A program made the translations under genes and the position numbers. Positions 14,714 to 33,432 of a stretch of DNA of 37,982 nt are shown here, one piece after another (the first letter of the stretch is position 1; each line of letters opens with the position of its first letter). Under the pieces are notes generated by a model, which saw nothing but the letters and a program-made list of their open reading frames with translations, searched no databases and was not told the DNA's origin. The stretch lies in NCBI GenBank assembly GCA_018303125.1, contig JAGVYS010000048.1:1-37982 (forward strand), read 5' to 3'. Source of the stretch: Candidatus Woesearchaeota archaeon. GTDB lineage: Archaea; Nanobdellota; Nanobdellia; Woesearchaeales; WJIZ01.

Positions 14714-15514
14714 TCACACATTTGCCTTTCTGTAAAACTGCGTTGCAAGAAAGCATCCTAGCAAAAGCAACACAATTGAGCCGCTTGGAGGTATGTCCAG
14801 TGGGAATGAGATTATTATTCCTAATGCCACAATTATTGATGCGCTTAAGGAAGAGATTATGACTGTCTGCCTAAATGACTTTGAGAGATTTAATGCAATC
14901 AATGCAGGCAGGACAAGCAAGGCAGAAACCAGCAATATACCAACTGCCCTTATGCTTATTACAACCGCCATTGCTGTTAGCAGTGTAAAGAAAAAGTTTG
15001 CAAGCCCGCTTCTTTTTCTTGAGAGCCTTGCCAGCTCATCGTTGAATATGGTGATTAGCATATCCTTGTAGAAGAAAATGAGAAATGTGATGGTAGCAAC
15101 TAGAAACAGGATGGCAAGCAAGATGTCAATAGTGCTTAATGCAAGGACGCTCCCGATTAGGTAGCTGTATAGGTTGATGTTGAATCCCCTTACTATGCCT
15201 ATGACAACAATGCCAATTCCAACACCAACTGATAGAATAAGTGCTATAGCTGACTCACCATAGACATTGTTCTTTATCAGCGAGCGCACGAAAAAACTGC
15301 CCAGGACAGCAGTTATGAGGGCCGCAATAATAGGCTCAATCCCTATAAGTAACCCTATTGCTATGCCGCCAAATGCAAGATGCGCCAAGCCATCACCAAG
15401 CAAAGAAAGCCTCCTGAGAACAAGGAAAGGCCCTATAAGTCCGCAGCATAGCGCAATCACAATCCCTCCAAGTAGAGCCTTCTGCATGAATCCATAGCCA
15501 AGAAAATCAATCAT
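14714..15514 (-). CDS. znuB: Metal ABC transporter permease (ZnuB/MntB family)
   Basis: The protein has 266 residues from ATG 15514 (MIDFLGYGFMQKALLGG), which overlaps the ATPase gene's end by 8 bp and has GGTGAG 7 nt upstream; an earlier ATG in the frame is less suitable. About eight membrane helices follow the ABC-3 pattern, including LVLRRLSLLGDGLAHLAFGG, the coupling loop to the ATPase. It forms the membrane channel for Zn2+, Mn2+ or Fe2+. Metal choice cannot be told from the permease; the Fur-type regulator and His-rich binding protein favour Zn or Mn. Confidence 0.9.
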   Translation of the reverse strand: MIDFLGYGFMQKALLGGIVIALCCGLIGPFLVLRRLSLLGDGLAHLAFGGIAIGLLIGIEPIIAALITAVLGSFFVRSLIKNNVYGESAIALILSVGVGIGIVVIGIVRGFNINLYSYLIGSVLALSTIDILLAILFLVATITFLIFFYKDMLITIFNDELARLSRKRSGLANFFFTLLTAMAVVISIRAVGILLVSALLVLPALIALNLSKSFRQTVIISSLSASIIVALGIIISFPLDIPPSGSIVLLLLGCFLATQFYRKANV

Positions 15515-16172
15515 GATGCTCACCATGATGATGCACAAAATGCGGGCCATATACCTGTTTCAGCATCTCTGGCATTGACTCTGGCTTCCCAAGGCAACAG
15601 ACATTGTGGTTTATGCAAAGGACATTCTTTACAAGTGTCGGTATTACGCCCACTTCATGAGTAACTAGTATTATAGTTATGCCATGGCTGTTCAGTTTCG
15701 TCAGCAAGCCGTAAAATGACTGTTGCGCATGGACATCCACTCCTGCAGTGGGTTCATCAAGTATCAGCAGCTTGGGATTTTGCTGCAATGCCATCGCAAT
15801 AAGTACGCGCTGCTGATGCCCACCTGATAAATTGACGAATTTTTTCTTAAGTAAATCTTTGATTCTTGTCAATTCAATGGCATCGGATTTGGAATCAGAG
15901 AATATCTCTTCCACCGTGCCTGGAAAATTCCTGTCAATTGCATACCTTTGCGGGACATACCCTATGCTGTGCCTGGGTATGGAAAGCATCACGCTGCCGC
16001 TTATAGGCTCAAGAAAGCCAAGCAAAATCTTAATCAGTGTCGTTTTTCCAGAGCCGTTTGGGCCGATGATGGCCAGGAAATCCCTTTCTTCTATCGAAAA
16101 AGATATGTTTTCAAGAACCTTGACACTACCATAAGAAAAACTCAGTGATGAAACATTAACTATGGGACTCAT
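15507..16172 (-). CDS. znuC: Metal ABC transporter ATP-binding protein (ZnuC-like)
   Basis: The protein has 221 residues. Walker A GPNGSGKTTL, Q-loop YVPQRY, signature LSGGHQQRVLIA, Walker B LLILDEPTAGVD and H-loop VTHEVG are all present. The start ATG at 16172 overlaps the binding-protein stop (ATGA) and has GGAG 5 nt upstream; a GTG two codons earlier is the alternative. The C-terminus is His-rich (GPHFVHHHGEHHD), which could bind metal. It energises uptake with the ZnuB-like permease. Confidence 0.9.
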   Translation of the reverse strand: MSPIVNVSSLSFSYGSVKVLENISFSIEERDFLAIIGPNGSGKTTLIKILLGFLEPISGSVMLSIPRHSIGYVPQRYAIDRNFPGTVEEIFSDSKSDAIELTRIKDLLKKKFVNLSGGHQQRVLIAMALQQNPKLLILDEPTAGVDVHAQQSFYGLLTKLNSHGITIILVTHEVGVIPTLVKNVLCINHNVCCLGKPESMPEMLKQVYGPHFVHHHGEHHD

Positions 16173-17056
16173 TGGCACTCCATCGCTTTCCTAAGGTTTT
16201 CCAGGTTTTGCCTCATAAGGCTAAGATAATTATCAGACGGATCTGAACTGCCTTCCAAAGGGTTAAGCTCAAGAGTTTCCGCATTTACTTCTTTTGCAAT
16301 GGTCCTTGCAACTTTCGGGTCAACGAGTTTCTCATAGAAAACATATTTTATATCATTCTCCCTTGCCCTGTCAACCAATTCTGCCAGCTGTTGCGGAGTA
16401 GGCTCAGCTTCAGGCTCCAGGCCAGAAATTGAAATGACATCAAATTCATAGTCCATGGCAAGATAGGCAAATGCATTATGGTTAACAAGAACTATGCGCT
16501 TTCTGCACTCTGCAAGCCCTTCTTTAAATTCGGCATCAAGCAGCTTAAGTTGCTCGATAAGTGCCATGCCGTTTTTCTTATAGTTTTCTGCGCTGTCAGG
16601 ATCCGCAGCTATCAATCCGGTCATGATATTTGTAGTCATCACCTGAGCATTATTAGGGGAAAGCCAGATATGCGGGTCATTTCCACTCTCATCTTCTTCA
16701 TGGTCATCTGTACTTGGCAGCAAAGCTATTCCCGTACTTGCAGGAATTATCTGGATACTTGGATTTACAGAATTTATCAGGCTTGATTCGAACTGTTCAA
16801 ATTCAATACCTATTATCACAAAAGCATCCGCAGAGTTCAGTTTCTGGACATCTCTCGGAGTTGGCTCATAGTCATGCGGCTCAATTCCGGAGGGGACTAT
16901 TGAATTCACTATTCCCTTCTCTCCAACTATATTCCTTGTCAGGTCAAGCAAAGGGTAGAATGTCGATGCAACAACTATTTGATTGCTTTCCGTTATTTTA
17001 GGGCTGCATCCGACTAATGCAATAATAATCAAAACTATCAGTATTGTTTTTTTCAT
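16169..17056 (-). CDS. znuA: Metal-binding lipoprotein (ZnuA-like) of the ABC transporter
   Basis: The protein has 295 residues from ATG 17056, which has GGTGG 7 nt upstream. The signal peptide MKKTILIVLIIIALVGC has a lipobox Cys. The cluster A-I binding-protein fold shows metal-ligand histidines in EPHDYEP, DPHIWLSP and VNHNAFAYL, and an acidic His loop DDHEEDESGND typical of zinc-specific members. It captures metal outside the membrane for the permease. First gene of znuABC, which runs leftward from the Fur-box control region. Confidence 0.9.
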   Translation of the reverse strand: MKKTILIVLIIIALVGCSPKITESNQIVVASTFYPLLDLTRNIVGEKGIVNSIVPSGIEPHDYEPTPRDVQKLNSADAFVIIGIEFEQFESSLINSVNPSIQIIPASTGIALLPSTDDHEEDESGNDPHIWLSPNNAQVMTTNIMTGLIAADPDSAENYKKNGMALIEQLKLLDAEFKEGLAECRKRIVLVNHNAFAYLAMDYEFDVISISGLEPEAEPTPQQLAELVDRARENDIKYVFYEKLVDPKVARTIAKEVNAETLELNPLEGSSDPSDNYLSLMRQNLENLRKAMECQ

Positions 17057-17091
17057 AATCAAACCACCTAATACCTGCAATGCAATTTTTC

Positions 17092-17134
17092 TTTATAAGT
17101 TTTACTGAGAATCATTCTCAATAATGTTTTTATA
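17092..17134. promoter_or_regulatory. Divergent znuABC/fur control region with a 7-1-7 Fur-type box
   Basis: TGAGAAT-C-ATTCTCA at 17106-17120 is a perfect 7-1-7 inverted repeat that matches the Fur-family box form TGAtAATnATTaTCA. TATA CTTATAAAG (minus strand, about 17092-17100) serves znuA, and TTTTTATAC (about 17126-17134) serves the regulator. The box lies between the two, so binding should control both directions. The placement predicts metal-dependent repression with autoregulation. Confidence 0.8.
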
Positions 17135-17156
17135 CTCTAACCCATTTTGGTAGGTA

Positions 17157-17570
17157 ATGGGAAGGCAGACGAGCCAGAAAAAAATACTTATTGATGGAAT
17201 AATGCAGTTCAATTCCTTTTTTGATGCCTATATGCTACATAAAAGTATTTCAGGCAAAAGCAGGCTGAGCCTCGCAACAACATATCGCTTCCTGAACAGC
17301 ATGGAAAGCGAAGGCCGGATACATTCTTATGTTTGCAACAGCAAGAAGATATATTCATTGCATGAGAAAAGCCATTCCCATTTTAAGTGCGAAAAATGCG
17401 GCAAGGTAAAGCACATAAAAATAAAGAACCTTGATTTTCTCGCAGGTATCTTAGATGATGAAATCTGCCATTTCCAGATTGAGCTGTCAGGCAAATGCTC
17501 TGATTGCAAAGGGCAGGATTTGAAGCCTAAGGAAAATCATAAACACATCGATTTGTCAGATAATCTTTAA
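17157..17570 (+). CDS. Fur-family metal-responsive regulator
   Basis: The protein has 137 residues, the usual Fur size. The recognition helix is in SLATTYRFLNSME (compare SLATVYRNL). The dimerisation domain carries HSHFKCEKCGKVKHI and GKCSDCKG, the two CxxC pairs that hold structural zinc, and a His-containing tail (KENHKHID). It should bind the adjacent 7-1-7 box. Whether it senses Zn (Zur), Mn or Fe cannot be read from sequence, but its linkage to znuABC favours a zinc role. Confidence 0.88.
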   Translation: MGRQTSQKKILIDGIMQFNSFFDAYMLHKSISGKSRLSLATTYRFLNSMESEGRIHSYVCNSKKIYSLHEKSHSHFKCEKCGKVKHIKIKNLDFLAGILDDEICHFQIELSGKCSDCKGQDLKPKENHKHIDLSDNL

Positions 17571-20473: not shown

Positions 20474-20523
20474 TCTAGCAAAAGCAGAAAAGATAAATAG
20501 GAATGCAGTTCTTATATGGAGTT

Positions 20524-20844
20524 ATGCATGAAACAGTCATAGCTAAGGGCATAATAAAGGAGGCCATGAAGCATGGCAGCCCTGAAGAAATAAATCTTGA
20601 GATAGGTGAGCTCGCACACGTACCGGCATATGAGCTCGCAGGATGCCTTAAGCAATTGGTTGACTGGAAAATAACTTACACAGAGCAGGTTGCGTTCGTA
20701 TCCTGTGATTGCGGCTTCTCAGGACATCCTACTGTATTGGAGAGAGGCCATGACTCTTTCCTTATTGAATGCCCTGAATGCGGCAGTGTCCCTAAACTCC
20801 TGGCAGGGACAGAGATAAAGATTGTATCTGTAAAGGTGAAATAA
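20524..20844 (+). CDS. hypA: Hydrogenase nickel-insertion protein HypA
   Basis: The protein has 106 residues from the ATG at 20524, chosen because HypA must begin MHE (His2 binds nickel) and TATA-like AGATAAATAG lies about 27 nt upstream. The zinc domain has SCDCGFSG and ECPECGS, so the first pair is CxC rather than the usual CxxC. HypA delivers nickel to the large subunit of NiFe hydrogenase. The hypC start overlaps its stop by 1 bp. It converges on the hydrogenase operon and so probably serves it. Confidence 0.9.
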   Translation: MHETVIAKGIIKEAMKHGSPEEINLEIGELAHVPAYELAGCLKQLVDWKITYTEQVAFVSCDCGFSGHPTVLERGHDSFLIECPECGSVPKLLAGTEIKIVSVKVK

Positions 20845-21050
20845 TGTGCCTAGCTGTTCCAGGTAAAGTAGTAGGAATAAAAGACAGCAAGGCAACAGTT
20901 GATTACATTTCTGAGAAAAGGGAAGGCCAGATACTTGAGGGCTCTTACAGGAAGGGCGACTATGTCATCATACAGGGAGGCATAGTGATTGGAAAAATTC
21001 CGGAAGCTGAGGCTAAAAAAGCAATCGAGCTTTTTAATTCACTGAATTGA
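20844..21050 (+). CDS. hypC: Hydrogenase assembly chaperone HypC
   Basis: The protein has 68 residues. It begins MCLAVPGKVVGI; Cys2 is essential for carrying the Fe(CN)2CO group with HypD. The small beta-barrel pattern (TVDYISEKREG, GDYVIIQGGIVIGKIP) is typical, and the length is normal. It is co-translated with hypA. HypB, HypD, HypE and HypF are not in the window and must lie elsewhere. Confidence 0.92.
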   Translation: MCLAVPGKVVGIKDSKATVDYISEKREGQILEGSYRKGDYVIIQGGIVIGKIPEAEAKKAIELFNSLN

Positions 21051-21747
21051 CCTTCTCTATAATCTTAATTGTATAATTCTCAAGGTATTCCTTTTGCTCT
21101 TTGCTCAGGATATAGCACGCAAATCCCCAGTGAATTGCAACAATATCCCCTTTGCTGACAGAAGGAAGCATCTCCGGAAGGTAAACAATTGTCTTTACCT
21201 CTCCTTTTCTGATTGCTATTTTAGGATTTCTGATAACAACATCAGTTTTCACGATAAGATTTGATGCCATTGCCTCAATTACCTCTCCATAAGATATTCT
21301 GCAATTGTCCATGTTCTGTGTTGTTGTCGCAACATTCCCTGTTGTCATGCCAACTCCAACATAAAAAACATTGAAGTTATGGTGCGGAAGAAGCCCATGA
21401 GGCATATTTTCTATTAGCCTTTCCCCGTAAGATGAAGGAAGCCCCCTTTTCATGAGCTTTCTTATTATTTCTTTCATGTCCTCATTCGTGAAGGAATCAA
21501 GCATTTTGTTTCCTATCCAGTATGCCTCAACAACACTATGGTCAAGGAAATGCAAATTATTTTTCCTTGCGATTGAATCAAGATAAGGGAAAAGCCCTTC
21601 AAATTTCTTTAGGGCATTAGAAACCTTATCAGGACCATTCTTTCTTGCCAGATATTCCAGAAAAAGCTGCGAAGCTTCTTTTGGTCCGCAGAAGCGAAGG
21701 CTATTAGTTATGTAAGAGAATCTTGCAGCCAGCTCAATCCCGTCCAT
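21034..21747 (-). CDS. Uncharacterised protein at the end of the hydrogenase operon (DUF6390-like)
   Basis: The protein has 237 residues from ATG 21747, which has GGGTG 7 nt upstream and overlaps the EamA gene's end by 14 bp. It is soluble, with no signal peptide. MDGIELAARFSYITNSLRFCGP starts a helical domain; a central segment with RLIENMPHGLLPHHNFNVFY and VGMTTGNVATTTQNMDNCRI, rich in His, Thr and Cys, and a C-terminal KGDIVAIHWGFACYILSKEQ look conserved. I believe it matches a family known from hydrogenase clusters (DUF6390, from memory). The role is unknown; assembly or regulation of the enzyme is inferred from operon position. Its 3' end overlaps hypC's by 17 bp. Confidence 0.75.
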   Translation of the reverse strand: MDGIELAARFSYITNSLRFCGPKEASQLFLEYLARKNGPDKVSNALKKFEGLFPYLDSIARKNNLHFLDHSVVEAYWIGNKMLDSFTNEDMKEIIRKLMKRGLPSSYGERLIENMPHGLLPHHNFNVFYVGVGMTTGNVATTTQNMDNCRISYGEVIEAMASNLIVKTDVVIRNPKIAIRKGEVKTIVYLPEMLPSVSKGDIVAIHWGFACYILSKEQKEYLENYTIKIIEKVNSVN

Positions 21748-22618
21748 GCGGCAGCACCCTGAGCCCATGCCATGCAGCAATAGCTGTTCCAGAAACAGTT
21801 AGAGCCATTCCAATCCAGCTCAGAATTTCGATGCCCTGCCCAAGAAACACCCAGCTTAGTACAGCAGTTATAGGCGCCCCTAAGCTTAGTATGCATGCGG
21901 CAACTGAAACAGGCAAGGTCATTAGGCCGTTATAGTAAGTGAAAACATACAACAGCAAGAGCATGGAAGTCATGGCTATCCAAAGGTATTGCGGCATGCT
22001 CATGGAGAAAATCATGCCTGCCTTTCCTGTTGCAAGAAGGAAGAGCAGCATGAACAATGAGCCGAAGAACATCCTGCCAAAGCCAACAACATTGCCAGTA
22101 AGCTCCTTGAGCACATGCTTTGCATATGTGTTCTCAGCTGCCCAGAATACTGTTGCGGCAAGAACAAGGAAGTGCCCTCCTGAAAAAGTAAAATCAGGCA
22201 TTATCATAAGATAAGTTCCGGCCAATAACATAGCTGCGCCGAGAAAATATTTCAAGGATAGCCTTTCCTTTAGGTAAAGGAAAGCAAAAATGCTGATGTA
22301 GATAAAGATTGTCTTGTGTATGAAAGCAGATGTTGTGCCTGCTGTCATCTGCAAGCCCTTGAAAAAAAGAAGGAAAGGTATCGAGCCGCCAATTAGCCCA
22401 ATTGCAACAAGCTGAATCCAGTTCTTCCTTGTGAGCTGGGCAAGATTCTTGTAATCCTTTACGGCAATTATGACGCAAAGCAGCAGAACCGCAACAGCAG
22501 CGTTTTTTGCAAATGTGAAAACAGAGCTGTCAAATCCCTTCACGGCAAAGCTGTTAAGGAAAATCGATACTCCAGATACCATGGCAGTAATTAGCACATA
22601 CAGCATTCCCTTATGCAT
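21734..22618 (-). CDS. EamA/DMT-family transporter inside the hydrogenase operon
   Basis: The protein has 294 residues and ten membrane helices in two EamA repeats (first: MLYVLITAMVSGVSIFLNS; second: FLVLAATVFWAAENTYAKHV). These carriers move small organic solutes or metals; the substrate is not predictable. The start MHKGMLYVLI has GAGGTG 6 nt upstream and overlaps the protease gene by 28 bp; the stop overlaps the next gene. It is thus translationally coupled in a hydrogenase operon, which is not the usual place for this family. Confidence 0.85.
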   Translation of the reverse strand: MHKGMLYVLITAMVSGVSIFLNSFAVKGFDSSVFTFAKNAAVAVLLLCVIIAVKDYKNLAQLTRKNWIQLVAIGLIGGSIPFLLFFKGLQMTAGTTSAFIHKTIFIYISIFAFLYLKERLSLKYFLGAAMLLAGTYLMIMPDFTFSGGHFLVLAATVFWAAENTYAKHVLKELTGNVVGFGRMFFGSLFMLLFLLATGKAGMIFSMSMPQYLWIAMTSMLLLLYVFTYYNGLMTLPVSVAACILSLGAPITAVLSWVFLGQGIEILSWIGMALTVSGTAIAAWHGLRVLPHGRD

Positions 22619-22974
22619 TCTTCCACCTCTCCTGCAATTTTCTTCGCATCCCCTTCCATCGGCACGGCTATTATTTTAACCTTTTTCTTTTTACCAATGC
22701 TGTTAAGCAGCTTGAGGAAAAATCCTAGGTCAAAGTCATGCGCTGTTACAATGCTTCTTGTTTTAAGTTTATCAGATTTTATAATTGCAGTTTTTTCAAT
22801 GCCTTTTGCAACGTCAAGTATGATTAGGTCCTCTTCATCTAATATTTCATCAGGGCTTCTGCATTCAACTATCTCAATGTCCTTTGGAAGGTGCATTGAA
22901 ACCCTTCTGGCCATTGAGTCAAAGCTTAGGAATTCATTTCCGAATACAAATACCTTCACCATATTTAAAGCCAT
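22591..22974 (-). CDS. Hydrogenase maturation endopeptidase (HycI/HybD type)
   Basis: The protein has 127 residues. VFVFGNEFLSFDSMARRV corresponds to the GNxLLxDDGxG start of peptidase family A31, with acidic residues that hold nickel (E13/D17 region), and IVTAHDFDLGFFLKLL corresponds to the later His motif. The family clips the C-terminal tail of the large subunit after nickel insertion. It overlaps hydA by 10 bp; an internal ATG at 22962 is an alternative start. The protein is short for the family (about 150-160), but the motifs are placed correctly. Confidence 0.82.
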   Translation of the reverse strand: MALNMVKVFVFGNEFLSFDSMARRVSMHLPKDIEIVECRSPDEILDEEDLIILDVAKGIEKTAIIKSDKLKTRSIVTAHDFDLGFFLKLLNSIGKKKKVKIIAVPMEGDAKKIAGEVEECIRECCMC

Positions 22975-24239
22975 TCAACCTCAAGGAAATGGGCAGAGCA
23001 TGAGAAGCATGGATCATAGCTCCTTATGAGCTTTTCCACCTCAAGGATTATGTCTTCCTTCTTTCTGTTTAGCATTGATGGGAGTATCTCCCTTATGTCT
23101 TCCTGCATGTTTAGCAGGTTCTGGGCTGTGGGGGTTATTATGTTTGCATTTGTTATTACTCCTTTGCTGTCAAGCGTGTACTCATGCCATAGCGTGCCCC
23201 TTGGCACTTCTATGCATCCTATTCCCTTTCCGCTACGCAATTTCATTTTCACTACTTTCTCCTTTTTTATGTGCAAGTTCCTGCATATGTCAATTGCATG
23301 CTCTATGCAGTGCACTAGCTCTATGGCCTGTGCTGCGTTGTTGTGATATGGATTGGTAGAAGGAAGCGTGAAAGGGCACTCCTTTAGCATTTTCTTTGCA
23401 TTCTCCCTTAAGAATCCGAAATTGTTGTTGAGCCTTGCCAGCGCTCCAACAAAATACCTTTTTTTGTTCCTTACAACAAAATTTGCAGAGGTATATGGCT
23501 CATGGTACTCAGATATGAATTTCCGGTATTCACTCTTGTCAAAGTTGCTCTTCCCTGCACCGAACTTTCCATCCAGAACCGCATATTCCCCTTTTTGCAT
23601 AAGCGAAAAGAAATCTCCCTTGGTTGAGAAGTCAGGGTATTTTAATGAGAAAAACAGTCTGCATGTTGATATGGCATCAGGAAGGGCCTTCTCAAGAAGC
23701 ACTCCAATCTCTGCCATCTTTTCCTGTTCCGGGAGCTTAAGCCAACCTCCAATAGTTGCCGATACCGGATGCAAATCCCTTGCCGCAAGTATTTTTATTA
23801 TGCCATTCCCGGTTTTCATAAGGTTCAAGGCTTGCTTTAGCTCATTCCTGTATTTTGGTGCCATTGCCAAGGCAGAGTCATATCCCAGATAATCCGGAAG
23901 GGCCAAAAAATAAAGATGCGTTGCATGGCTCCTTATCCTTTCTGCCAATGTCATCAATATCCTAAGCTCTTTCGTCTGCATGCTGGCCTTGTAGCCTAAA
24001 GCATCTTCTATGGCGCTTATAGCAGCTATTACATGTGCGCAGCTGCATATCCCGCATATCCTTGATGTCATCTCATGAGCCTCGTAGAATTTCCTGCCCT
24101 TTACTATCCCCTCAAAATATCTGGAGCCTTCAACTGATGAAAGCTCGCATCTTGCAACTTTGCCCTTTCTGACAACAATCCTTAATTTGGCATGGCCTTC
24201 TATCTTTGTGATATGGTTCAGGGTTATTGTCTTACTCAT
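22965..24239 (-). CDS. hydA: NiFe hydrogenase large (alpha) subunit
   Basis: The protein has 424 residues. The nickel-binding cysteines are in RICGICSCAHV (RxCGxC) and SYDPCFSCSAH (DPCxxC). Only FLEVEWL follows the last His, so the cleavable tail is very short. It holds the NiFe site of the bidirectional, cytosolic group 3b type hydrogenase/sulfhydrogenase, and with HydD splits or makes H2. It overlaps hydD by 8 bp. The next gene is the matching protease. Confidence 0.95.
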   Translation of the reverse strand: MSKTITLNHITKIEGHAKLRIVVRKGKVARCELSSVEGSRYFEGIVKGRKFYEAHEMTSRICGICSCAHVIAAISAIEDALGYKASMQTKELRILMTLAERIRSHATHLYFLALPDYLGYDSALAMAPKYRNELKQALNLMKTGNGIIKILAARDLHPVSATIGGWLKLPEQEKMAEIGVLLEKALPDAISTCRLFFSLKYPDFSTKGDFFSLMQKGEYAVLDGKFGAGKSNFDKSEYRKFISEYHEPYTSANFVVRNKKRYFVGALARLNNNFGFLRENAKKMLKECPFTLPSTNPYHNNAAQAIELVHCIEHAIDICRNLHIKKEKVVKMKLRSGKGIGCIEVPRGTLWHEYTLDSKGVITNANIITPTAQNLLNMQEDIREILPSMLNRKKEDIILEVEKLIRSYDPCFSCSAHFLEVEWL

Positions 24240-25041
24240 AGAAAACTCTTACCCCTCTGAATGTTGTCTCAGTTTTATGCGCTTTCCCGGACATGACCTT
24301 TTCAAGCATGGGCAGCTTTAAGCCTGCAAAAGTCCTGAGCCTGTCATTAATGAACTTATCATCAAATCCCCTATCCCTGAGCATCCTCACCATCAGGTCA
24401 AGATTCATGTCTTCTGTCGGTCCCCTGCATCCCCAGCACTCAAAGCCCCCATTGATGCAAACAGCATGGCAGCCTCCTGCAGTTATAGGGCCTAAACATG
24501 GCTTTCCCTGGTCAAGTAAGCATGTATTTCCATTCTGCCTGCATTCCACGCAGACAGGGCTCTGGTAAGGCCTTGGTATGCTGCCCCTGACAAGACCCTT
24601 TATGAAGGAAAGTATTTCCTTCTTCTCCGGAGGGCAGCCGGGAATGTAATGGTCAACCAGAATATGGGCATCTAAGGGAGTTGGCTCAACATCTTTTATC
24701 TCCTCCATCTTCCTGTAAAGCAAATGCTCATAATTCTCTTTAAGCGTGAAGCTCCTGTATGCAGGCACGCATCCTGTGCATGCGCATGCTCCCAAAGACA
24801 CAAGCATCTTTGAATTCCTTCTGAGCATTTTCAAAGTCTTTAAATCGCCTCTGTCGGCGACAAGGCCTTCAACTATTACGCAGTCAAACTCTTCTTCCGG
24901 ATTGACTTCTTTTATGAAAGGGAATGCCCTAAGATCAACAAGCTCAACAATGTCAAGTATCTCATCCTCATTGAATATCACAGAGAGCTGGCAGCCTGCA
25001 CAGCCTGTTATCCCATATACCCCTACCTTTAGTTTACCCAT
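24232..25041 (-). CDS. hydD: NiFe hydrogenase small (delta) subunit
   Basis: The protein has 269 residues. GITGCAGCQLSV, GACACTGCVPAY and PGCPPEKKE carry the proximal 4Fe-4S cluster cysteines. A C-terminal Cys-rich stretch (CVECRQNGNTC, KPCLGPITAGGCHAVC, FECWGCRGPT) supplies two more clusters. It passes electrons between the NiFe site and the HydG/HydB module. It overlaps hydG and hydA by 8 bp each. There is no signal sequence, so it is cytosolic. Confidence 0.95.
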   Translation of the reverse strand: MGKLKVGVYGITGCAGCQLSVIFNEDEILDIVELVDLRAFPFIKEVNPEEEFDCVIVEGLVADRGDLKTLKMLRRNSKMLVSLGACACTGCVPAYRSFTLKENYEHLLYRKMEEIKDVEPTPLDAHILVDHYIPGCPPEKKEILSFIKGLVRGSIPRPYQSPVCVECRQNGNTCLLDQGKPCLGPITAGGCHAVCINGGFECWGCRGPTEDMNLDLMVRMLRDRGFDDKFINDRLRTFAGLKLPMLEKVMSGKAHKTETTFRGVRVFYE

Positions 25042-25834
25042 TTTCTATGTCCATGATTTCATCATACCTGAATACTGGCCCGTCAAGGCAGGTGAATTTG
25101 CCTCTTATCATGCAGTGGCAGCACACGCCCATTGCGCAGTACATCAGCCTTTCAGTGCTGACAAAAATTTGCTTATCTCTGAAACCCTTGCTTTTCAGTA
25201 TGCCGATGCTGCCCTTCATCATTATCGGCGGGCCACATATCATGGCCGCGCTTTTATCTGCCCTGATATCCGTTTCGCCTAATGCATCTGTTACAAAGCC
25301 TTCCCTTGCATCAATGCAAGATTTTGTATTTCCCTTCTTGTCTACAGTAACATTGATGCTGTATTTCTTTTTCCAGCCAGCAAGCTCCTTCTTGAATATT
25401 ATGTCATCAGGTGAGCGGTAGCCTAAAAACATGCTGACCTGTCCGAAATCCTTTCTGTGGTTCTCAACGTAATCAATAAGCCCTTTCAGTGGAGCTACCC
25501 CGCAGCCCCCTCCTACTATCACTATATCCTTGCCATTCAGTTTTTTCATTGGGTAGCCTTTCCCATAAGGACCGCGCAAAAGCACAGTCTCGCCTTTTTT
25601 AAGCCCAGCAAGAGCATTGGTGACTGCCCCAACCTGCCTTATGTTGAGCTTTATTTCTTTCCTTGAGTCAGAGCATATAGAAATTGGCGCTTCCCCATAG
25701 CCAGGCACAGAAACCTGGACAAACTGCCCTGGCGAGTGCAAAACAGCCATTCCCACTGTCATTGTAAAAGTATCCGCAGTCTCACGGGCAGAGCTTAATA
25801 CCTTGTAAGGCCTCGGCACATATGGGTTATCCAT
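25034..25834 (-). CDS. hydG: Hydrogenase gamma subunit, FAD/NAD(P)-binding reductase
   Basis: The protein has 266 residues. GQFVQVSVPGYGEAPISIC binds FAD, VIVGGGCGVAPLKGLIDYV binds NAD(P), and CAMGVCCHCMIRGKFTC near the C-terminus ligates a 2Fe-2S cluster, as in dihydroorotate-dehydrogenase electron-transfer subunits. It is the site of NAD(P)+/NAD(P)H exchange in HydBGDA. Overlaps of 8 bp on both sides show tight coupling. Confidence 0.93.
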   Translation of the reverse strand: MDNPYVPRPYKVLSSARETADTFTMTVGMAVLHSPGQFVQVSVPGYGEAPISICSDSRKEIKLNIRQVGAVTNALAGLKKGETVLLRGPYGKGYPMKKLNGKDIVIVGGGCGVAPLKGLIDYVENHRKDFGQVSMFLGYRSPDDIIFKKELAGWKKKYSINVTVDKKGNTKSCIDAREGFVTDALGETDIRADKSAAMICGPPIMMKGSIGILKSKGFRDKQIFVSTERLMYCAMGVCCHCMIRGKFTCLDGPVFRYDEIMDIENG

Positions 25835-26807
25835 TTTCTACCTTCATGTTGTTCAGTATATCCACGAAATCTATTCTTGTCGGGCATCCCTCTATGCATC
25901 TCCCGCAGCCGACGCAAAGTGGTACTTTATGCTTTTCCTTGAAATACTCGAGCTGGTGGAAAATCCTGTGCTTGAATCTTTCTTCCCTGTCTTTCCTGTA
26001 TACATGTTCCCCAGCAACTCTTGTAAACTCCTGTAATTGGCAGGAGCTCCAGTTTCTCTTCCTCTCGCCTTCATTTATGTTGCTCGTCTTTACCTCATCA
26101 TGTGTCTCGAAGCAGTAGCATGTCGGGCATAATGCAGTGCATGCCCCGCACGACAGGCATAGATCAGTCCCTTTTTTCCAATCGCTGTTGTTGTAGAATA
26201 ACGAAATGTCCTTTTTCTCCAGCCTGTCTGAGCCGGGTATCTTCTTTTCTTCCTCAGATATTTTCTTGGATGTCTTTGAGAATAAAGATGCATATTTCTT
26301 TGCCATGCCCTTTCCTTTGCTTGAGCCTATTTCAACAAGGAAATCATCTTTTTTGTCATATACCATAAGGTCAAAGTAATCTGCAAGTTCAAGCGAGCCG
26401 CAGAAGCAATACGGAGAAGGCGCGGTGTTGCAATGGTATCCGATAAGGTATGAATCCTTTCTTGCAGCAGTATAATATGGATCATGGATATCATTCATGA
26501 ATACCATGTCCTGGTGCTTTATCGCATTGAGGTCGCATCTTCTCAATCCAAAAAATGCCCTTTTCTTGGACGGCAATTCCGGCACGATTATCTTTGTGCC
26601 ATTGAACTGGAAAAGGACCTCATTTTTTTTGAAGAAATACTCCTTTATTGGGAAATATGCGTTCTTGCCGAGAAATATATCATCAGGATTTTTAAGCGGA
26701 AGAAACCTTATGACATCACCTTTCAGCGGGGCAATGACCTCAAAATCTTGCTGGAGTTTTTCAATAAACCCGTTCAGCCTTTCCTTTTTTAGGAGCAGGA
26801 CTTCCAT
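25827..26807 (-). CDS. hydB: Hydrogenase/sulfhydrogenase beta subunit, 4Fe-4S protein
   Basis: The protein has 326 residues. Two ferredoxin-like motifs occur: CLSCGACTALCPTCYC and CVGCGRCIEGCPTRIDF. The N-terminal part (FFGLRRCDLNAIKHQD and similar) matches the HydB/AsrA-like domain found in sulfhydrogenases. It wires electrons between HydG and the small subunit or an outside carrier. It is the first gene of a seven-gene leftward operon. TATA TATAAATA (26831-26838) lies about 27 nt before the ATG, so the mRNA is leaderless. Confidence 0.93.
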   Translation of the reverse strand: MEVLLLKKERLNGFIEKLQQDFEVIAPLKGDVIRFLPLKNPDDIFLGKNAYFPIKEYFFKKNEVLFQFNGTKIIVPELPSKKRAFFGLRRCDLNAIKHQDMVFMNDIHDPYYTAARKDSYLIGYHCNTAPSPYCFCGSLELADYFDLMVYDKKDDFLVEIGSSKGKGMAKKYASLFSKTSKKISEEEKKIPGSDRLEKKDISLFYNNSDWKKGTDLCLSCGACTALCPTCYCFETHDEVKTSNINEGERKRNWSSCQLQEFTRVAGEHVYRKDREERFKHRIFHQLEYFKEKHKVPLCVGCGRCIEGCPTRIDFVDILNNMKVENG

Positions 26808-27235: not shown

Positions 27236-30200
27236 TTATCCTTTTCTGGGTTTCTTTTTCACTGGCTTGAGCAGCAAATTTATGCCTATGCCCATTGCAA
27301 CCACTGTCAGTATGACAGCAATTCCTATGAACAGGTTTGGCTTGCCGACATCGCTTACAGCCATGCCAGTTATGCCTGACTTTCCGTAAGTGTTATTCCA
27401 CAATATGCCTGACATTTCCTCATCGCTCATTCCTGCAGGCTTCTGCGGCTGTACAATCGGCTCTTTCTTGGGCTGCTCAGGTTCTTTCTTCTCGATAGGT
27501 TTCTTCGCAGAAGATCCTCCGCCTGCACCGCCTCCTCCCCTTGGACTGCCTGCTACGCCTCCTCCAGAAGATGAGCTCCCACTTCCAGGTGAGGGAGGCT
27601 GGGCTGGCTCAGTGGTGAAAGCGTATTCTACAGCTGCTGAATTGGAAAGCCCTTCAATCTTGTAATAGGTTCCGATATCAGTGCACTTGTAAGTGTTTGA
27701 ATTTGATGTTATAGCCGTACCGTCGCAACGCAATGAAAGTTCCACTGTGCGATTGCAGTTGCTGCTTACCTCTGCGAGTGAATTTATCTCAGAGTCAACA
27801 ACGCATACAGTGTTTAAGGTATTGTTCAACTGAGGAACATATGCTGTCTTTGTCCTGCCAGACTGTAAGTTAAGGCCTTTTATCAAGATAGCTCCTCTCT
27901 TGCCTGATGTTGTAACCTCCACAGTGAATCCAAGGTTAAGGAAGCTTCTGCTGAAATTATGGTTGAACTGCACTATAGGGTCTGTTCCTGAAAATATTTC
28001 AACAGGATATACCTCTGCAAATGCCTTGCTTAGGTCAATGCTTCCATTAATGAGCACACCCAACGGCTTTACAAATCCTGATACGCTTACGCTCCCCTCT
28101 ACATAGTCCTCGTCCTTTGAGTTGCAGTCCTCATCAATCCCGTTTTGCGGTATTTCATCGGCATCAGGGTGTATTGATGGGTTATTGTCATTGCAATCAA
28201 CGGACTGAGGGTAAGAATCCTCATCGTCATCATGCTCTATCGTAACTGATAGTAAAATGTTATTTGAGCCGCCGTAGGTATTTTTGCACTCCATAACCAG
28301 GTCATGTGTTCCGAATTGCACCCTGGATAAGGTTTCAGTATGGTTTCTTGATTGGTTTACGCCGAATGAGCCAGATCTCTTTAAAATTCCTGCATCTGAA
28401 AAGGAATAAGTACAGTTTGTAAGGTCGTCAGTTAGCACGCTTAGAGTTATCGGGTTTGCAAGTACTGACTTGGATGGCTGCAGCCTGCTAAGGACAGGTA
28501 CCTTCCTGAAAACAGGAATTTCTATTTCATGTGCATCGTTGTTTGTATTAGCATCTCCAGTAGCGCTTACTAGTATCTTTACTTTGCTCGTTCCAGCAAC
28601 TTGAGGTACCCAGAATACATCCCGGAGTAGGGAGTCTCCTTCCTTTATGCTGCCCAGCTGCTGGACAGAAATTGTCTGGCCGTCAGCTATTAATGTTGCA
28701 GTAACATCATCAGCTTTCTTTGTACCATCATTATTTACAAGATACTGGAACCTAGTGGAAAAGCCTGTTGTTGATCCTCCGGGCGAAAATATTGTGGGAG
28801 TTACATCAGGGCCGTCATTCCTTGCGCTTACAGAGCTTTGCCTTTCATTGTTAAGCGGCGTAGCCTCATTCGCTGCGGTAATTATAGCACGTATGGTGTA
28901 AATTCCCGGCTGTGCAGGCTGCCAGCCTACTTTTATAGTGCGCCTTTCATCAACTAAAAGTGAGGCAATTTGTGATGTGGAATGCAAATTCCCGTTTATG
29001 AATATGTCCAGCTTCGCATTTGTGACATTCAATGAGCCTATGTTTACAAAGCTAACTGTAAAATTGTCTGTGATGTCAACAACATATGTCCTTTCAAATG
29101 TCATTGAGTCCAGGGATATGTCAATGCCAAATCCTCCTACTGTAAACTGCTTCTGATCAGCATTGTTGGAAGGGTCAGTTTCGTTGGTTGAAGATATGAA
29201 CAGTTTGGTGTTTACAGGGCCTGTCCTTGATGGTGTCCAGATTATTGAGGCCTTTATTGCCTCATTTATGGCAATTGGCTGCAAGTCGGAATGCAAAATG
29301 GTTCCTGTACCGAAAGTGAGCGCACTAAAGCCGGCGAATGTCCAGTCAAGAGTGATTATTACCCCATTGGCAAGCTTTGCAGACTCGGATACAAAGAGCT
29401 CTAAAATTTCATGCTGGTTGCCATAAGTCACATCCAAGATTGTTTCTTCCGCATTTTTCTGGGATGGGTTTATTTTATACGTAACAGACTGGTATGTAAA
29501 ATCATTTGGCAATGAATGCCTGGCAAATGTCGCCTCAGCATCGTATACTATGGCTATGTCAGCCGCGGTATTTTGTGCTTCCTTTGAGCCTAAATTTGAA
29601 ATGCTTGCCTGGAAATTGTATTCCTGGTCAGTTGTAATGCTTGATGTTGATCTGCCTAGTGCAAGAATTTTCTTGTCACTCTTGAATATCTCAAGCTTTG
29701 CCTCAAGATTCGGCCCAGAATCAGATGCAATTATTTCCTTAATGAGCGTATTTGTCTTTGGCTCAATGTCAATTATGCTAGGTACTGATGAAACATGTAA
29801 GATATATGTTCCCTTTCTTGGCGGCGAGACAGATGCCGATATTGTTGAAATTTCTCCAATAGGCAGCTGGTTAAGATTGTGCGAATAAGTTGTGCTCTCT
29901 CCCATAATCACCTGGATGCTATTTGTCCCGAAAATCAATATTGCCTCTTGTCCATTGCCAAGGCCGAAGATTGACTTATCAGCCGCAATGTACTCATTTT
30001 CTGTCCCATTTATGGATATGCGGATATTCACAGAATCTCCCAAGCTTCTTGAAGTCATTCTGTACTCTGTGCCATCTCTTGTTTCTAGGAAATTGCCATC
30101 TTTCGCAATAGTAAACTCCTGCAATTTTCTCAGAAGCGTAAATCTTGTGAATACAGATACAAAATCTATATTTCCCATATTCCTTGCCCTTAAGGTGATT

Positions 30201-33200
30201 GCATTGTTTTCGCCTACAAAAAGCCTTGATGGCGTGCTTAGGTCAAGAATCTCTACATCGGCGCCTTTAGTGCGCACACCGAAATAATAATCCTCACGGT
30301 TGTTTGTTAGGTCAACTTCTCCTGCAGTGTCAAGATTAATTGACATAATGGAATCTCCGACCTTTTTCGGGAAAGAAAAAAAGTTGCTCGTGATGTTCTT
30401 GCCGCTTCCTATTGGCCCTATGCTGCTGGTTTCTATTATTGCCTGTGAAAGGGATACTATAGTAATGAAATCCGTGACAGTGTCTATGCGTACCATGTTG
30501 CCATTTTGAAGTATTGGCCTAGTTTTGGCCTTAGCAGGGAACTCCTCGGTCCTTCCGCTGTAGCTTACCTGCAGCATTGGTCCGTCGGCAGTGTCTCTAA
30601 GGCTAAAGGTATAGGATGTTCCTTCATAAACAATTCCCTCAGGCCTGCCCCAAAATAGGATAGCCATCCTCGAGTCCTGTCCGAGTGTTGATGTAATCGT
30701 TATGCTTTCTGAGTCTGATATTCCGGTATTCTCAATGTTATAAGTTACAAGGAGAATGTCATTAACAAATGCATTGTTATTTGTGCTCAGTAGCGGAGTG
30801 AAAGGTATTGTGCTGTCCTTCCTCTCTATCTTCACTATTTTCACACGAAGATTAGGTCCACGTACAACACCATTTCTACTTATTGCTAAGGCATTGTTTT
30901 CCAGTAATACATCATCAGCGGAATTTAGATTTGCAATTATCTCATATGGTATCTGTTCATTAGGCGTTACAGCTATGATTTTTGTAATATTGGCAAGACT
31001 ATCCAGGCTGAAAATTTCCTCATACATGGAAAAATTCCTTCCGATTGTTATGTTGACTTTTTGCCCATCAGAGCTGGCATATATTGAATAGCCATCGATG
31101 TTGCCAATCTCTCTGTTGTAAAGCAGCAAACTATATGCAGTGCCATCAATTGTGAAGTTTAGCTGTATTTTTCCAACTGAAATTCCAGACTTCACAAGAT
31201 AAGTTTGCTCTTCAAAAACAATTTCTTTCGGGACTCCAATATCAGCAGAAGCATGCACTGGCGAGGCTATTGTGGCAAGCACAAGCTGGAAGTTCTTAGC
31301 CTCATTGTCGCCTTGGTTTTCAATATCAATCGTTATGTTGTTTGATTCATTCACAATAAATAGCTCGTTTGCTGTAAGCGTCTTTATGGAAAGGTCAGGG
31401 CCTGTTGATACCACATTAACAATGAAAGTCACAAAATCATTGCCGGTATTTTCATCTCCTGGTGCTATAATTTCAGCTTTCAGCTCTGTCTGCCCAAGCT
31501 GGTCAGGTATCCAGGTAAACTGGACTAGCTCTGATTCAGATGGCTGGAGAAGCCTTACAGATTTTTCTTCAACAGCAACGTATTGGCCTGCAACCTTCTT
31601 GTATAGCCTTGCAGTGGCTTTCTGGGAAAGGGCAAACGCAGTGCCATTATTTGTAATATTGAATACAGGGAAACTCTGGGCATTTATTATTGCCCTCCCG
31701 AACTGGACAGCAAGATTCTCTGCTGCATAGTCTATATGGGACTCACCTGATGTTATCATTATTGTGAATCCAGAATTGCTATAATCTTGTGTTGCATCCT
31801 CAACACTTACATATGCCCTGCCTGACTGTGTCGGAGAGTATATAATATCGGAATCAATCGAACTTGAAATTGGAGATACTCCATCTGTGCCATACACGCT
31901 TATCCTGATTGCATTTTGGCTCTCAACTGAAATCCTGTAGAAATTTCCGGCATGTGCAGTGAAAGTCACATAATCCGCATCTCCCGATACAGAGAATGTA
32001 TGGGATTTGGATGTGCCATCTGTCTGTATTTCTCTTGCCTGGGTATAATCATTGTCAGGCTCAAAACCATCTACGTTTGACGGAGCCGTGGTTGAATAGT
32101 TAATTGTATATTCACCTATTGGGAAGCTAGTCAGACCATTGGAAAGCCTGATTGTATGCGAACCTGCGGCGAAATCAGTCCATGCAAATATGCTGTTTGT
32201 ACCTGTTCTTATGACATTGCCATTGGCATTAAGAAGCTCAACCTTTGCATGTGTAGGTATTGTTCTGTTCTCTATGTCTAAAATAGCAAACTCTCCTGCT
32301 ACCTTGCTAAAAGTGAAGTAATCAATATCGCCTTCAGGATAGAAATTATGCTTTTCTTTTACATCCTTTGCAAGGCTCCTTGCCTGTTGTATGTTATCAT
32401 CATTCTCGAATGGGTCATCTGCAAGTGGAGTTGCACTAAGGACAAAATCATACACACCTATATTTCCTGACACTGCTGCGAAATAAGAAGCGCTTGCAGG
32501 AGGATACCAATAAGCTAAGCTTGAAGGTATGTTTATGATAAGACTCTGGGCATTGTCATAAATCTTTAGCAATGGCGAGAAATCATCCTGCTTTCCGGAT
32601 GCATTAAGGAGGTAAACGAAGTTCCTTGTAGCATCAAAAGATACAAAGTCATTATCTGCTTCAGGATAGATGCTGCGAAGCTGTTTGCTGTTAAGAGCAA
32701 GTGGCTTTGCCTGTGAGAATGAATTATCTGGTTCAAATGAGTCTGCGCCTATAACCTGCACTGTTGTTGTGTTTTCAACAATGCCGGATGTGAAATATAC
32801 ATGAATCCTTATTAGGTAAACGCCCAATTCTATGTTTTTAGTGTTGAAAATTGCAAGTGTGCTGGAATTTACAGCTGTGCCTCCCCCATCAGCAAGTATC
32901 ATTCTGGTTGTCTGGAAATTGGATGCGCCTAAAAGTGCATAATCCATCTCATAAAACCTGAATCCCTTGCCGAAGGCAGAGCCTTCTATAGTTATTTCAT
33001 CCTCTGAAAATGTGCCTTTTGTTGTCAGGATGGCAGTTTCGTCCTCGTCAGTTAAGGCAGCTGCCTGTCTTCCGAGCTCATCTGTCCTTCTGGAGCTTCC
33101 TGTTTCATCCGCTACAGAGGCCTTTCCTATAGTCATTTCCTCTTCAGAATCATCTGTTGCATCCTGGTCATCTGCATCAGGATTGTTTTCATCTGCCGCT

Positions 33201-33403
33201 ATATCAGAGTCTCCAGTATCATCATCTTGGGACTTGTCATCCGCTACTATATTATTAACAGATTGGTCTTGCAGGACATCAGGTACAGTTTGATCATTGC
33301 CTGACTCAGTACTCCCGTCCTGCAAAACATTGTTTTCCGCAAAAACAAAGAGCGAAAATAGTAGTATAATCGCAAAAAGAATAGATTTTGTATGCTTTGC
33401 CAT
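27236..33403 (-). CDS. Giant secreted surface protein with PPC, CARDB and MopE-like modules
   Basis: The protein has 2055 residues from ATG 33403 (MAKHTKSILFAIILLFSLFV, signal peptide, likely cut near FA-EN). An acidic Asp/Glu/Gln/Ser-rich stretch runs to about residue 90. Three PPC-like repeats start near 222, 330 and 447 (FEPDNSFSQA, FENDDNIQQA, FEPDNDYTQA). About seven CARDB-like beta-sandwiches follow (near 559, 668, 844, 1044, 1227, 1424, 1527; signatures such as ITIDIENQGDNEAKNF). An Ig-like module precedes an acidic MopE-like metal site near 1724 (DCNDNNPSIHPDADE, NGIDEDCNS). A Gly/Pro/Ser spacer, then GITGMAVSD, one membrane helix and KPVKKKPRKG anchor the C-terminus. It probably serves as an adhesin or envelope protein. 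It fills 16% of the window. Confidence 0.9.
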   Translation of the reverse strand: MAKHTKSILFAIILLFSLFVFAENNVLQDGSTESGNDQTVPDVLQDQSVNNIVADDKSQDDDTGDSDIAADENNPDADDQDATDDSEEEMTIGKASVADETGSSRRTDELGRQAAALTDEDETAILTTKGTFSEDEITIEGSAFGKGFRFYEMDYALLGASNFQTTRMILADGGGTAVNSSTLAIFNTKNIELGVYLIRIHVYFTSGIVENTTTVQVIGADSFEPDNSFSQAKPLALNSKQLRSIYPEADNDFVSFDATRNFVYLLNASGKQDDFSPLLKIYDNAQSLIINIPSSLAYWYPPASASYFAAVSGNIGVYDFVLSATPLADDPFENDDNIQQARSLAKDVKEKHNFYPEGDIDYFTFSKVAGEFAILDIENRTIPTHAKVELLNANGNVIRTGTNSIFAWTDFAAGSHTIRLSNGLTSFPIGEYTINYSTTAPSNVDGFEPDNDYTQAREIQTDGTSKSHTFSVSGDADYVTFTAHAGNFYRISVESQNAIRISVYGTDGVSPISSSIDSDIIYSPTQSGRAYVSVEDATQDYSNSGFTIMITSGESHIDYAAENLAVQFGRAIINAQSFPVFNITNNGTAFALSQKATARLYKKVAGQYVAVEEKSVRLLQPSESELVQFTWIPDQLGQTELKAEIIAPGDENTGNDFVTFIVNVVSTGPDLSIKTLTANELFIVNESNNITIDIENQGDNEAKNFQLVLATIASPVHASADIGVPKEIVFEEQTYLVKSGISVGKIQLNFTIDGTAYSLLLYNREIGNIDGYSIYASSDGQKVNITIGRNFSMYEEIFSLDSLANITKIIAVTPNEQIPYEIIANLNSADDVLLENNALAISRNGVVRGPNLRVKIVKIERKDSTIPFTPLLSTNNNAFVNDILLVTYNIENTGISDSESITITSTLGQDSRMAILFWGRPEGIVYEGTSYTFSLRDTADGPMLQVSYSGRTEEFPAKAKTRPILQNGNMVRIDTVTDFITIVSLSQAIIETSSIGPIGSGKNITSNFFSFPKKVGDSIMSINLDTAGEVDLTNNREDYYFGVRTKGADVEILDLSTPSRLFVGENNAITLRARNMGNIDFVSVFTRFTLLRKLQEFTIAKDGNFLETRDGTEYRMTSRSLGDSVNIRISINGTENEYIAADKSIFGLGNGQEAILIFGTNSIQVIMGESTTYSHNLNQLPIGEISTISASVSPPRKGTYILHVSSVPSIIDIEPKTNTLIKEIIASDSGPNLEAKLEIFKSDKKILALGRSTSSITTDQEYNFQASISNLGSKEAQNTAADIAIVYDAEATFARHSLPNDFTYQSVTYKINPSQKNAEETILDVTYGNQHEILELFVSESAKLANGVIITLDWTFAGFSALTFGTGTILHSDLQPIAINEAIKASIIWTPSRTGPVNTKLFISSTNETDPSNNADQKQFTVGGFGIDISLDSMTFERTYVVDITDNFTVSFVNIGSLNVTNAKLDIFINGNLHSTSQIASLLVDERRTIKVGWQPAQPGIYTIRAIITAANEATPLNNERQSSVSARNDGPDVTPTIFSPGGSTTGFSTRFQYLVNNDGTKKADDVTATLIADGQTISVQQLGSIKEGDSLLRDVFWVPQVAGTSKVKILVSATGDANTNNDAHEIEIPVFRKVPVLSRLQPSKSVLANPITLSVLTDDLTNCTYSFSDAGILKRSGSFGVNQSRNHTETLSRVQFGTHDLVMECKNTYGGSNNILLSVTIEHDDDEDSYPQSVDCNDNNPSIHPDADEIPQNGIDEDCNSKDEDYVEGSVSVSGFVKPLGVLINGSIDLSKAFAEVYPVEIFSGTDPIVQFNHNFSRSFLNLGFTVEVTTSGKRGAILIKGLNLQSGRTKTAYVPQLNNTLNTVCVVDSEINSLAEVSSNCNRTVELSLRCDGTAITSNSNTYKCTDIGTYYKIEGLSNSAAVEYAFTTEPAQPPSPGSGSSSSGGGVAGSPRGGGGAGGGSSAKKPIEKKEPEQPKKEPIVQPQKPAGMSDEEMSGILWNNTYGKSGITGMAVSDVGKPNLFIGIAVILTVVAMGIGINLLLKPVKKKPRKG

Positions 33404-33432
33404 TTTACCCCGATGATACAAGAAGCAGCCGA

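Follow-up and report, generated by a model that had tools for sequence, protein, structure and literature searches.

Introduction

To our knowledge, HypD, HypE and HypF have so far been thought necessary for every nickel-iron ([NiFe]) hydrogenase. We analysed a stretch of 37,982 nucleotides (nt) from a Candidatus Woesearchaeota archaeon (contig JAGVYS010000048.1, assembly GCA_018303125.1; hereafter the window), in which the operon of a putative group 3b [NiFe] hydrogenase also encodes an EamA transporter and a DUF6390 protein. We consider it probable that these two proteins replace HypD, HypE and HypF as an alternative module that matures the iron half of the [NiFe] site. In the usual scaffold the iron unit is held by Cys2 of HypC and Cys41 of HypD, possibly also by His51 of HypC, according to the available parts of two articles (PMC12134894, PMC8692609); the first also indicates, in its available part, that externally supplied carbon monoxide (CO) can enter the cofactor in known systems.

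The open-licence literature of PubMed Central (PMC) yielded no paper on DUF6390. Nor did it yield a description of an EamA-DUF6390 maturation system, including from the angles of HypD-less Woesearchaeota, group 3b and the Candidate Phyla Radiation, and none appears in the available parts of PMC12134894, PMC8692609, PMC9258230 and PMC10936187.

A previous interpretation of the window (the sequence-only reading) had placed hydBGDA, a maturation protease, a ten-helix EamA transporter and an "unknown" soluble protein in a single overlapping operon. All these genes are present where it located them, on the - strand. The transporter matches PF00892 over two stretches, i.e. two repeats (112.7 bits for a cut-off of 28.2), and displays about ten separate hydrophobic peaks, in agreement with the ten helices. 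The soluble nature of the last protein stands, but not its lack of a family: it matches DUF6390 (PF19927, an uncharacterised Pfam family) with 141.6 bits for a cut-off of 25, over profile positions 4-239 of 244, and its C-terminal domain resembles HypC.

Distribution of EamA, DUF6390 and the Hyp proteins

The window is one contig of a genome of 1.35 Mb that is 94.7% complete. A search of this genome returned no HypD, no HypF and no HypE over the cut-off (HypE-profile match of 50.9 bits versus 251.6). The lack of these three proteins, together with the HypC-like domain of DUF6390, therefore makes the accessory pair a likely replacement module.

The same genome and its relatives, 118 in all, were searched for each gene. 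Hydrogenase-type EamA was counted at E-values up to 1e-30 and HypE only over its cut-off; the HypE profile also matches superfamily relatives in many genomes, that of the window included, and these were excluded. HydA was found in 50 genomes, hydrogenase-type EamA in 32, DUF6390 in 20 and HypD in 11. HypF occurs in 12 genomes, namely the 11 with HypD plus G040, and HypE in 10, all with HypD. EamA and HypD are never in the same genome, and every genome with one or the other has HydA. Among the 39 genomes with HydA but no HypD, 32 have EamA (the other seven are G021, G025, G065, G074, G077, G078 and G085) and 35 have either DUF6390 or a short HypC fusion presented below. EamA and DUF6390 are present, and HypD, HypF and HypE absent, in G016, a 100% complete genome in one contig.

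The genomes behind 80 DUF6390 loci, a set that shares several members with the 118, were examined in the same way: HypD was found in 0 of 50 and in 1 of 30, and HypF in 1 of the 50 tested. In the sole HypD-positive case, L091 (G004), DUF6390 has lost both of its conserved cysteines and EamA is gone. The replacement of HypD, HypE and HypF by the pair is well supported.

Exchange at the same slot of hydrogenase loci

The comparison of loci with and without HypD points to exchanges in place. In the window, HydBGDA-HycI-EamA-DUF6390 faces HypC and HypA; in the HypD-positive genome G071 (L181) the same slot reads HydBGDA-HycI-HypF and faces HypE, HypD, HypC and HypA. In a second arrangement, the HypD-less loci L151, L156 and L164 carry HypA-HypC-short fusion with EamA opposite, then HycI and HydA, and the HypD-positive G013 (L172) carries HypA-HypC-HypD-HypE with HypF opposite, then HycI and HydA. 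These swaps suggest, without proving it, a division of labour in which EamA would stand for HypF and the fusion for HypD-HypE.

Remnants are also found in genomes with HypD. In G109 (L184:12263-12547) a stump of EamA, i.e. its first 50 residues, 70% identical to another EamA, runs head-on into the beginning of a hypC on the opposite strand; it is likely a deletion scar of the EamA system. In G059 (L177) DUF6390 persists in a shrunken form that lacks Cys20. An intact hydrogenase-type EamA is found in none of the 18 stretches taken from HypD-positive genomes (L168-L185), in agreement with the genome-wide search, and the loss of EamA also accompanies HypD, HypE and HypF when these are on another contig (G004, G109).

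These exchanges bear on the idea that EamA takes up nickel or iron, that DUF6390 is a chaperone of the imported metal, and that the absence of HypD, HypE and HypF has a different cause, for example an unrecognised pathway. Metal importers are common beside hydrogenases, and in G085, where DUF6390 is present and this type of EamA is not, the start of a NicO/HoxN-like nickel transporter, a membrane protein, adjoins HydB (L196:4681-5037). However, EamA is in 0 of the 11 HypD-positive genomes, whose hydrogenases also need nickel and iron, and its slot is occupied by HypF in G071 and G013. We thus regard metal import as unlikely.

Control for kinship

Fisher values on the above counts ignore kinship, and they take a weak match in G077 as a fusion (36/39 instead of 35/39). 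A HydA tree was built for 47 of the 50 genomes; it does not include G076 and G093 (not collected) or G079 (too short). The HypD label requires 10 changes on this tree, at least 8 of these changes being forced by well-supported branches. Of 8 independent pairs of genomes differing in HypD, a mean of 7.4 show the opposite difference in an intact HypC fusion and none show a parallel one (median p 0.016). This trait was defined after the first result had been seen, with G004, which has lost both Cys, and G059, which has lost Cys20, scored as not intact.

The whole pattern could be an artefact of incomplete metagenome-assembled genomes (MAGs), linked cassettes and shared ancestry: most of the genomes are MAGs, the genes move as linked cassettes and the 80 loci are only the best matches to the window. 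The complete G016, the at least 8 changes of HypD with the outcome of the pair test, and the loss of EamA even where HypD, HypE and HypF lie on another contig make this highly improbable.

Fold and conserved residues of DUF6390

The structure of DUF6390 was predicted from 72 sequences with a mean predicted local distance difference test (pLDDT) of 97.3 and a predicted template modelling score (pTM) of 0.93. Foldseek with the whole model retrieved HypC of the HypC-HypD-HypE complex (3vyu) with a root mean square deviation (rmsd) of 1.5 Å and a probability of 1.00, as the 40th match by E-value; the better E-values are mostly those of ribosomal S17-type barrels, but with rmsd of about 5-13 Å. As these barrels come ahead by E-value, a second aligner and a profile comparison were used before naming HypC. 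The second aligner ranks HypC first (2z1c, Z 5.9, rmsd 1.9 Å over 71/71 residues; with Z <8 this match alone is no proof), the remaining matches being other barrels with Z of 3.6-4.4. With HypC 3vys it gives an rmsd of 1.3 Å, and the aligned range opens with residue 149 of the model on residue 2 of HypC. In a single profile-profile comparison, DUF6390 aligns with HypC from HypD-positive genomes with a probability of 93.3 and an E-value of 2.8e-7, placing Cys149 on Cys2 of HypC and His206 on the HypC His. The predicted C-terminal domain has the HypC fold.

Pfam HupF_HypC matches the C-terminal fragment weakly (E 0.0019), the window protein fails the PF01455 cut-off (16-19 bits versus 28.5), and the HypC-type Cys is internal (residue 149) instead of following the N-terminal Met at residue 2. 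No HypD model (PF01924) matches DUF6390 at E up to 10. The N-terminal domain, predicted alone (pLDDT 96), matched no solved fold in a search of the PDB, a result that neither proves a new fold nor counts out a HypD-like one.

Alignment A3 has 72 rows, the window protein and those of 71 of the 80 loci. Of these proteins 71 have both Cys20 and Cys149 and the remaining one, L091, has neither; His123 and His206 are present in 72/72. DUF6390 would therefore hold, on one chain, the two residues of HypC (Cys149 and His206) plus a second cysteine (Cys20). DUF6390 proteins without Cys20 also exist at L186:8997-9719 (G096) and L187:1176-1859 (G031); no hydrogenase gene is nearby, and neither genome has a HydA match.

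The short HypC fusion, HypC and HydA

The short fusion was first met next to EamA in HydA-positive genomes with neither HypD nor DUF6390. It consists of a HypC-like domain and a short helical N-terminal part (about 157 amino acids (aa)), and lies between hypC and EamA in HypD-less genomes of the Woesearchaeal order. In the 118 genomes searched, 30 have some match to it, 19 of which are full-length. Cys14, His83 and His148 are invariant and the HypC-type Cys is present in 9/12 (alignment A5). No Pfam or NCBIfam model spans the whole protein, and of 6 members tested 1 passes the cut-off of Pfam HupF_HypC. In a profile comparison with DUF6390, parts of both domains align (probability 97.9, E 6e-13); the short fusion therefore looks like a compact branch of the DUF6390 family.

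The stand-alone HypC keeps Cys2 in 36/36 rows from the Woesearchaeal order. In the same rows its conserved His is present in 10/10 from HypD-positive genomes, in 0/7 of DUF6390 type (all Gln) and in 0/19 of short-fusion type. The position is also Gln in 26/27 other DUF6390 loci outside Thermoplasmata.

The examined active-site residues of HydA (Cys, Arg, Pro-Thr) are kept in 35 or 36 of 36 rows from HypD-less relatives and in 58/58 rows from DUF6390 loci; the Arg is presumably the one of the large subunit that contacts cyanide (CN). Since the active site is intact, a normal NiFe site is the natural expectation. This conservation, and the retention of HypC and HycI, make it very unlikely that the HypD-less enzymes do without CO and CN ligands, i.e. 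that they are other oxidoreductases or have a changed iron site served by the pair, even though no gene of the known ligand route was found in the genome of the window.

Spread of the pair

In 84,980 species genomes scanned for DUF6390, 376 relatives were confirmed and the 80 best matches to the window were kept as loci. Within these 80 the loci are mostly from Woesearchaeota, which include the closest named relatives of the window protein, and Thermoplasmata; Diapherotrites, Altiarchaeota and Patescibacteria are also represented, and single records are labelled Deltaproteobacteria, Spirochaetales, Aminicenantes, Bacillota and Chloroflexia (MAG labels as deposited). A scan of viral contigs found no relative of DUF6390.

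In 72/80 loci the gene immediately upstream of DUF6390, in the same orientation, encodes EamA, and HydA is in reach in 59 of the 72. Of the eight others, 2 end at a contig edge and 6 lack EamA at this place (L066, L091, L095, L117, L134 and L136; L134 has an EamA match further downstream). The sequence-only reading had named the absence of the pair from all other group 3b operons in related genomes as the result that would refute it; on the contrary, this linkage gives good support to its view that the enzyme requires both proteins and that they may take up a precursor for maturation. Its other option, a redox partner, finds no support here. That EamA and DUF6390 are unlinked passenger genes was considered and is ruled out by too wide a conservation. 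All EamA proteins of this hydrogenase-linked subfamily share Glu118 and Arg182, which are invariant, and Glu162 is near-invariant.

Observations that weigh against replacement

Several observations weigh against the replacement of HypD, HypE and HypF by the pair. Four genomes with HydA and without HypD have no clear fusion (G065, G077 with a weak match of 37 bits, G078 and G101). Three nearly complete genomes (G025, G074 and G085) have a DUF6390 with both Cys and neither hydrogenase-type EamA nor HypD, thus this EamA is dispensable in some genomes, where a different transporter or a ligand that diffuses may take its place. With EamA alone as the trait, the kinship test is weak (4.9/8 opposite, p about 0.06). 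The loss of the HypC His is not general: in Thermoplasmata and relatives the position is mixed (14 His and 17 Gln of 33) though HypD is absent. DUF6390 displays no sign of the iron-sulfur site of HypD or of a cyanide-making activity, and the ligand source is therefore left unexplained. Finally, on two bacterial plasmids (Mycobacterium and Sulfobacillus) DUF6390 occurs together with HypD, HypE and HypF, lying near hypE or next to hypD within hydrogenase gene sets, so that DUF6390 alone does not imply the absence of HypD.

No EamA is annotated or matched beside the DUF6390 of these plasmids, and the sets suggest that DUF6390 was originally, or has turned into, a carrier that cooperates with the usual scaffold. 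They favour a reading in which DUF6390 has no more than an auxiliary role in carrying Fe(CN)2CO, like HoxV/HupK, with the unit coming from partner cells or an unrecognised route and EamA being unrelated; HoxV is indeed an intermediate carrier of the unit according to the available part of PMC12134894. The tight linkage of EamA and DUF6390 (72/80) nevertheless ties both to the missing function, and the Cys and EamA are lost together where HypD is gained, which renders this reading quite unlikely.

The Mycobacterium plasmid set also encodes a HypC fusion of another kind (236 aa, L057:8070-8777), which adjoins a SIS-domain gene.

Proposed mechanism

If the pair replaces HypD, HypE and HypF, DUF6390 would act as a one-chain scaffold or carrier, with Fe(CN)2CO held between Cys20 and Cys149 near His206. 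Cys20 of the helical domain would play the part of HypD Cys41, and the C-terminal domain would supply the residues of HypC. DUF6390 would hand the iron unit to HydA, either directly or via the stand-alone HypC, which has kept Cys2 and lost its His. EamA would replace HypF and HypE as the ligand source and bring in either a donor of ligands or iron already bound to its ligands, while HypA (nickel) and HycI (proteolysis) would act as usual. We infer the binding of iron by DUF6390, the pairing of Cys20 and Cys149 in space, and the import by EamA together with its substrate.

In a stronger form, which we put forward tentatively, these cells make no ligands by HypE and HypF: EamA imports a donor of diatomic ligands or an Fe(CN)2CO-like unit from other cells and DUF6390 loads it. 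If true, this scavenging or new-chemistry route would span DPANN archaea, Thermoplasmata, Patescibacteria and some other bacteria.

Layout of the window

The features of the locus are collected in Table 1. The seven open reading frames (ORFs) of the - strand (21034-26807) overlap their neighbours by 8 to 28 nt. hypA and hypC, on the + strand, are convergent with the operon and hypC overlaps the stop of DUF6390 by 17 nt. For DUF6390 the ATG at 21747, which gives an overlap of 14 nt with the end of EamA, is a more likely start than the TTG at 21780 given by the ORF finder because homologues begin at this ATG.

Table 1. Features of the hydrogenase locus in the window, and an example of the short HypC fusion from another locus
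Feature	Position	Strand	Match or remark
HydB-like iron-sulfur subunit	25827..26807	-	NCBIfam AsrA / sulfhydrogenase beta, E 3e-55
HydG-like flavin/NAD(P) subunit	25034..25834	-	NCBIfam AsrB E 9e-74, sulfhydrogenase gamma E 1e-48
HydD, hydrogenase small subunit	24232..25041	-	NCBIfam ShyD E 2e-55
HydA, [NiFe] large subunit, four active-site Cys, short C-terminal tail	22965..24239	-	NCBIfam HydA E 4e-82
HycI-like maturation protease	22591..22974	-	Pfam HycI PF01750 E 0.0018 (below cut-off)
EamA transporter, hydrogenase-linked subfamily	21734..22618	-	PF00892 E 2e-32
DUF6390 protein, 237 aa, helical N-domain and HypC-like C-domain	21034..21747	-	PF19927 E 4e-41
DUF6390 N-terminal helical domain	21304..21747	-	Cys20 codon 21688-21690, His123 codon 21379-21381
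DUF6390 HypC-like barrel domain (predicted)	21037..21303	-	Cys149 codon 21301-21303, His206 codon 21130-21132
HypC, Cys2 kept, Gln replacing the conserved His	20844..21050	+	PF01455 E 2.5e-14
HypA nickel chaperone, adjoins hypC	20503..20844	+	PF01155 E 6.5e-8
Short HypC fusion, example	L152:3009-3479		plus 11 more loci (alignment A5)

The identity of the HycI-like protease is weak by profile and fits by position, the gene being at the same place in many loci. Group 3b is assigned from the gene content and from the best matches of HydA in NCBIfam, all of which are below equivalog cut-offs. HydG and HydB (25034-26807, -) match AsrB and AsrA at least as well as sulfhydrogenase subunits, also below the NCBIfam cut-offs.

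Upstream of the operon (27236-33421, -) a protein of 2061 aa with CARDB repeats and a MopE-type metal-binding motif is probably a surface protein. At 15507-17570 a ZnuA-like metal-binding protein and an ABC ATPase beside a Fur/PerR-like regulator are probably a metal uptake set. Terminator-like sites number 15 versus 6.8 in shuffled sequences, many of them inside genes; the promoter scan used the sigma-70 consensus, which is uninformative for an archaeon.

Comparison with known systems

Dozens of genomes thus have intact hydrogenases without HypD, HypE and HypF, with a transporter and a HypC-like protein carrying two Cys in the same slot. If the replacement is true, a central metal cofactor can be reached in a second way, DUF6390 acquires a function, and fewer genes would be needed to produce hydrogenases in other hosts. 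The origin of CO and CN would then become testable via what EamA transports, and import of the ligands or of the iron unit, if shown, would be a new kind of route.

DUF6390 is related to the HypC/HybG/HupF chaperones (PF01455) by the predicted barrel fold, the equivalents of Cys149 and His206 and its place in hydrogenase operons; it differs from them by the internal position of this Cys, by an extra helical N-terminal domain with a second Cys and by a score below the Pfam cut-off. Compared with HoxV/HupK, it is possibly also an extra carrier of Fe(CN)2CO, but HoxV/HupK resemble hydrogenase large subunits whereas the C-terminal domain of DUF6390 resembles HypC. EamA has the two repeats and about ten helices of the EamA / drug-metabolite transporter family (PF00892), and stands apart as a hydrogenase-linked subfamily with its own conserved Glu118, Arg182 and Glu162. 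With the HypC-HypD scaffold, HypE and HypF, the pair likely shares the same job, i.e. Fe(CN)2CO on two Cys, one of them of HypC type; in contrast to that system, HypD, HypE and HypF are absent from these genomes and a transporter occupies the slot of HypF.

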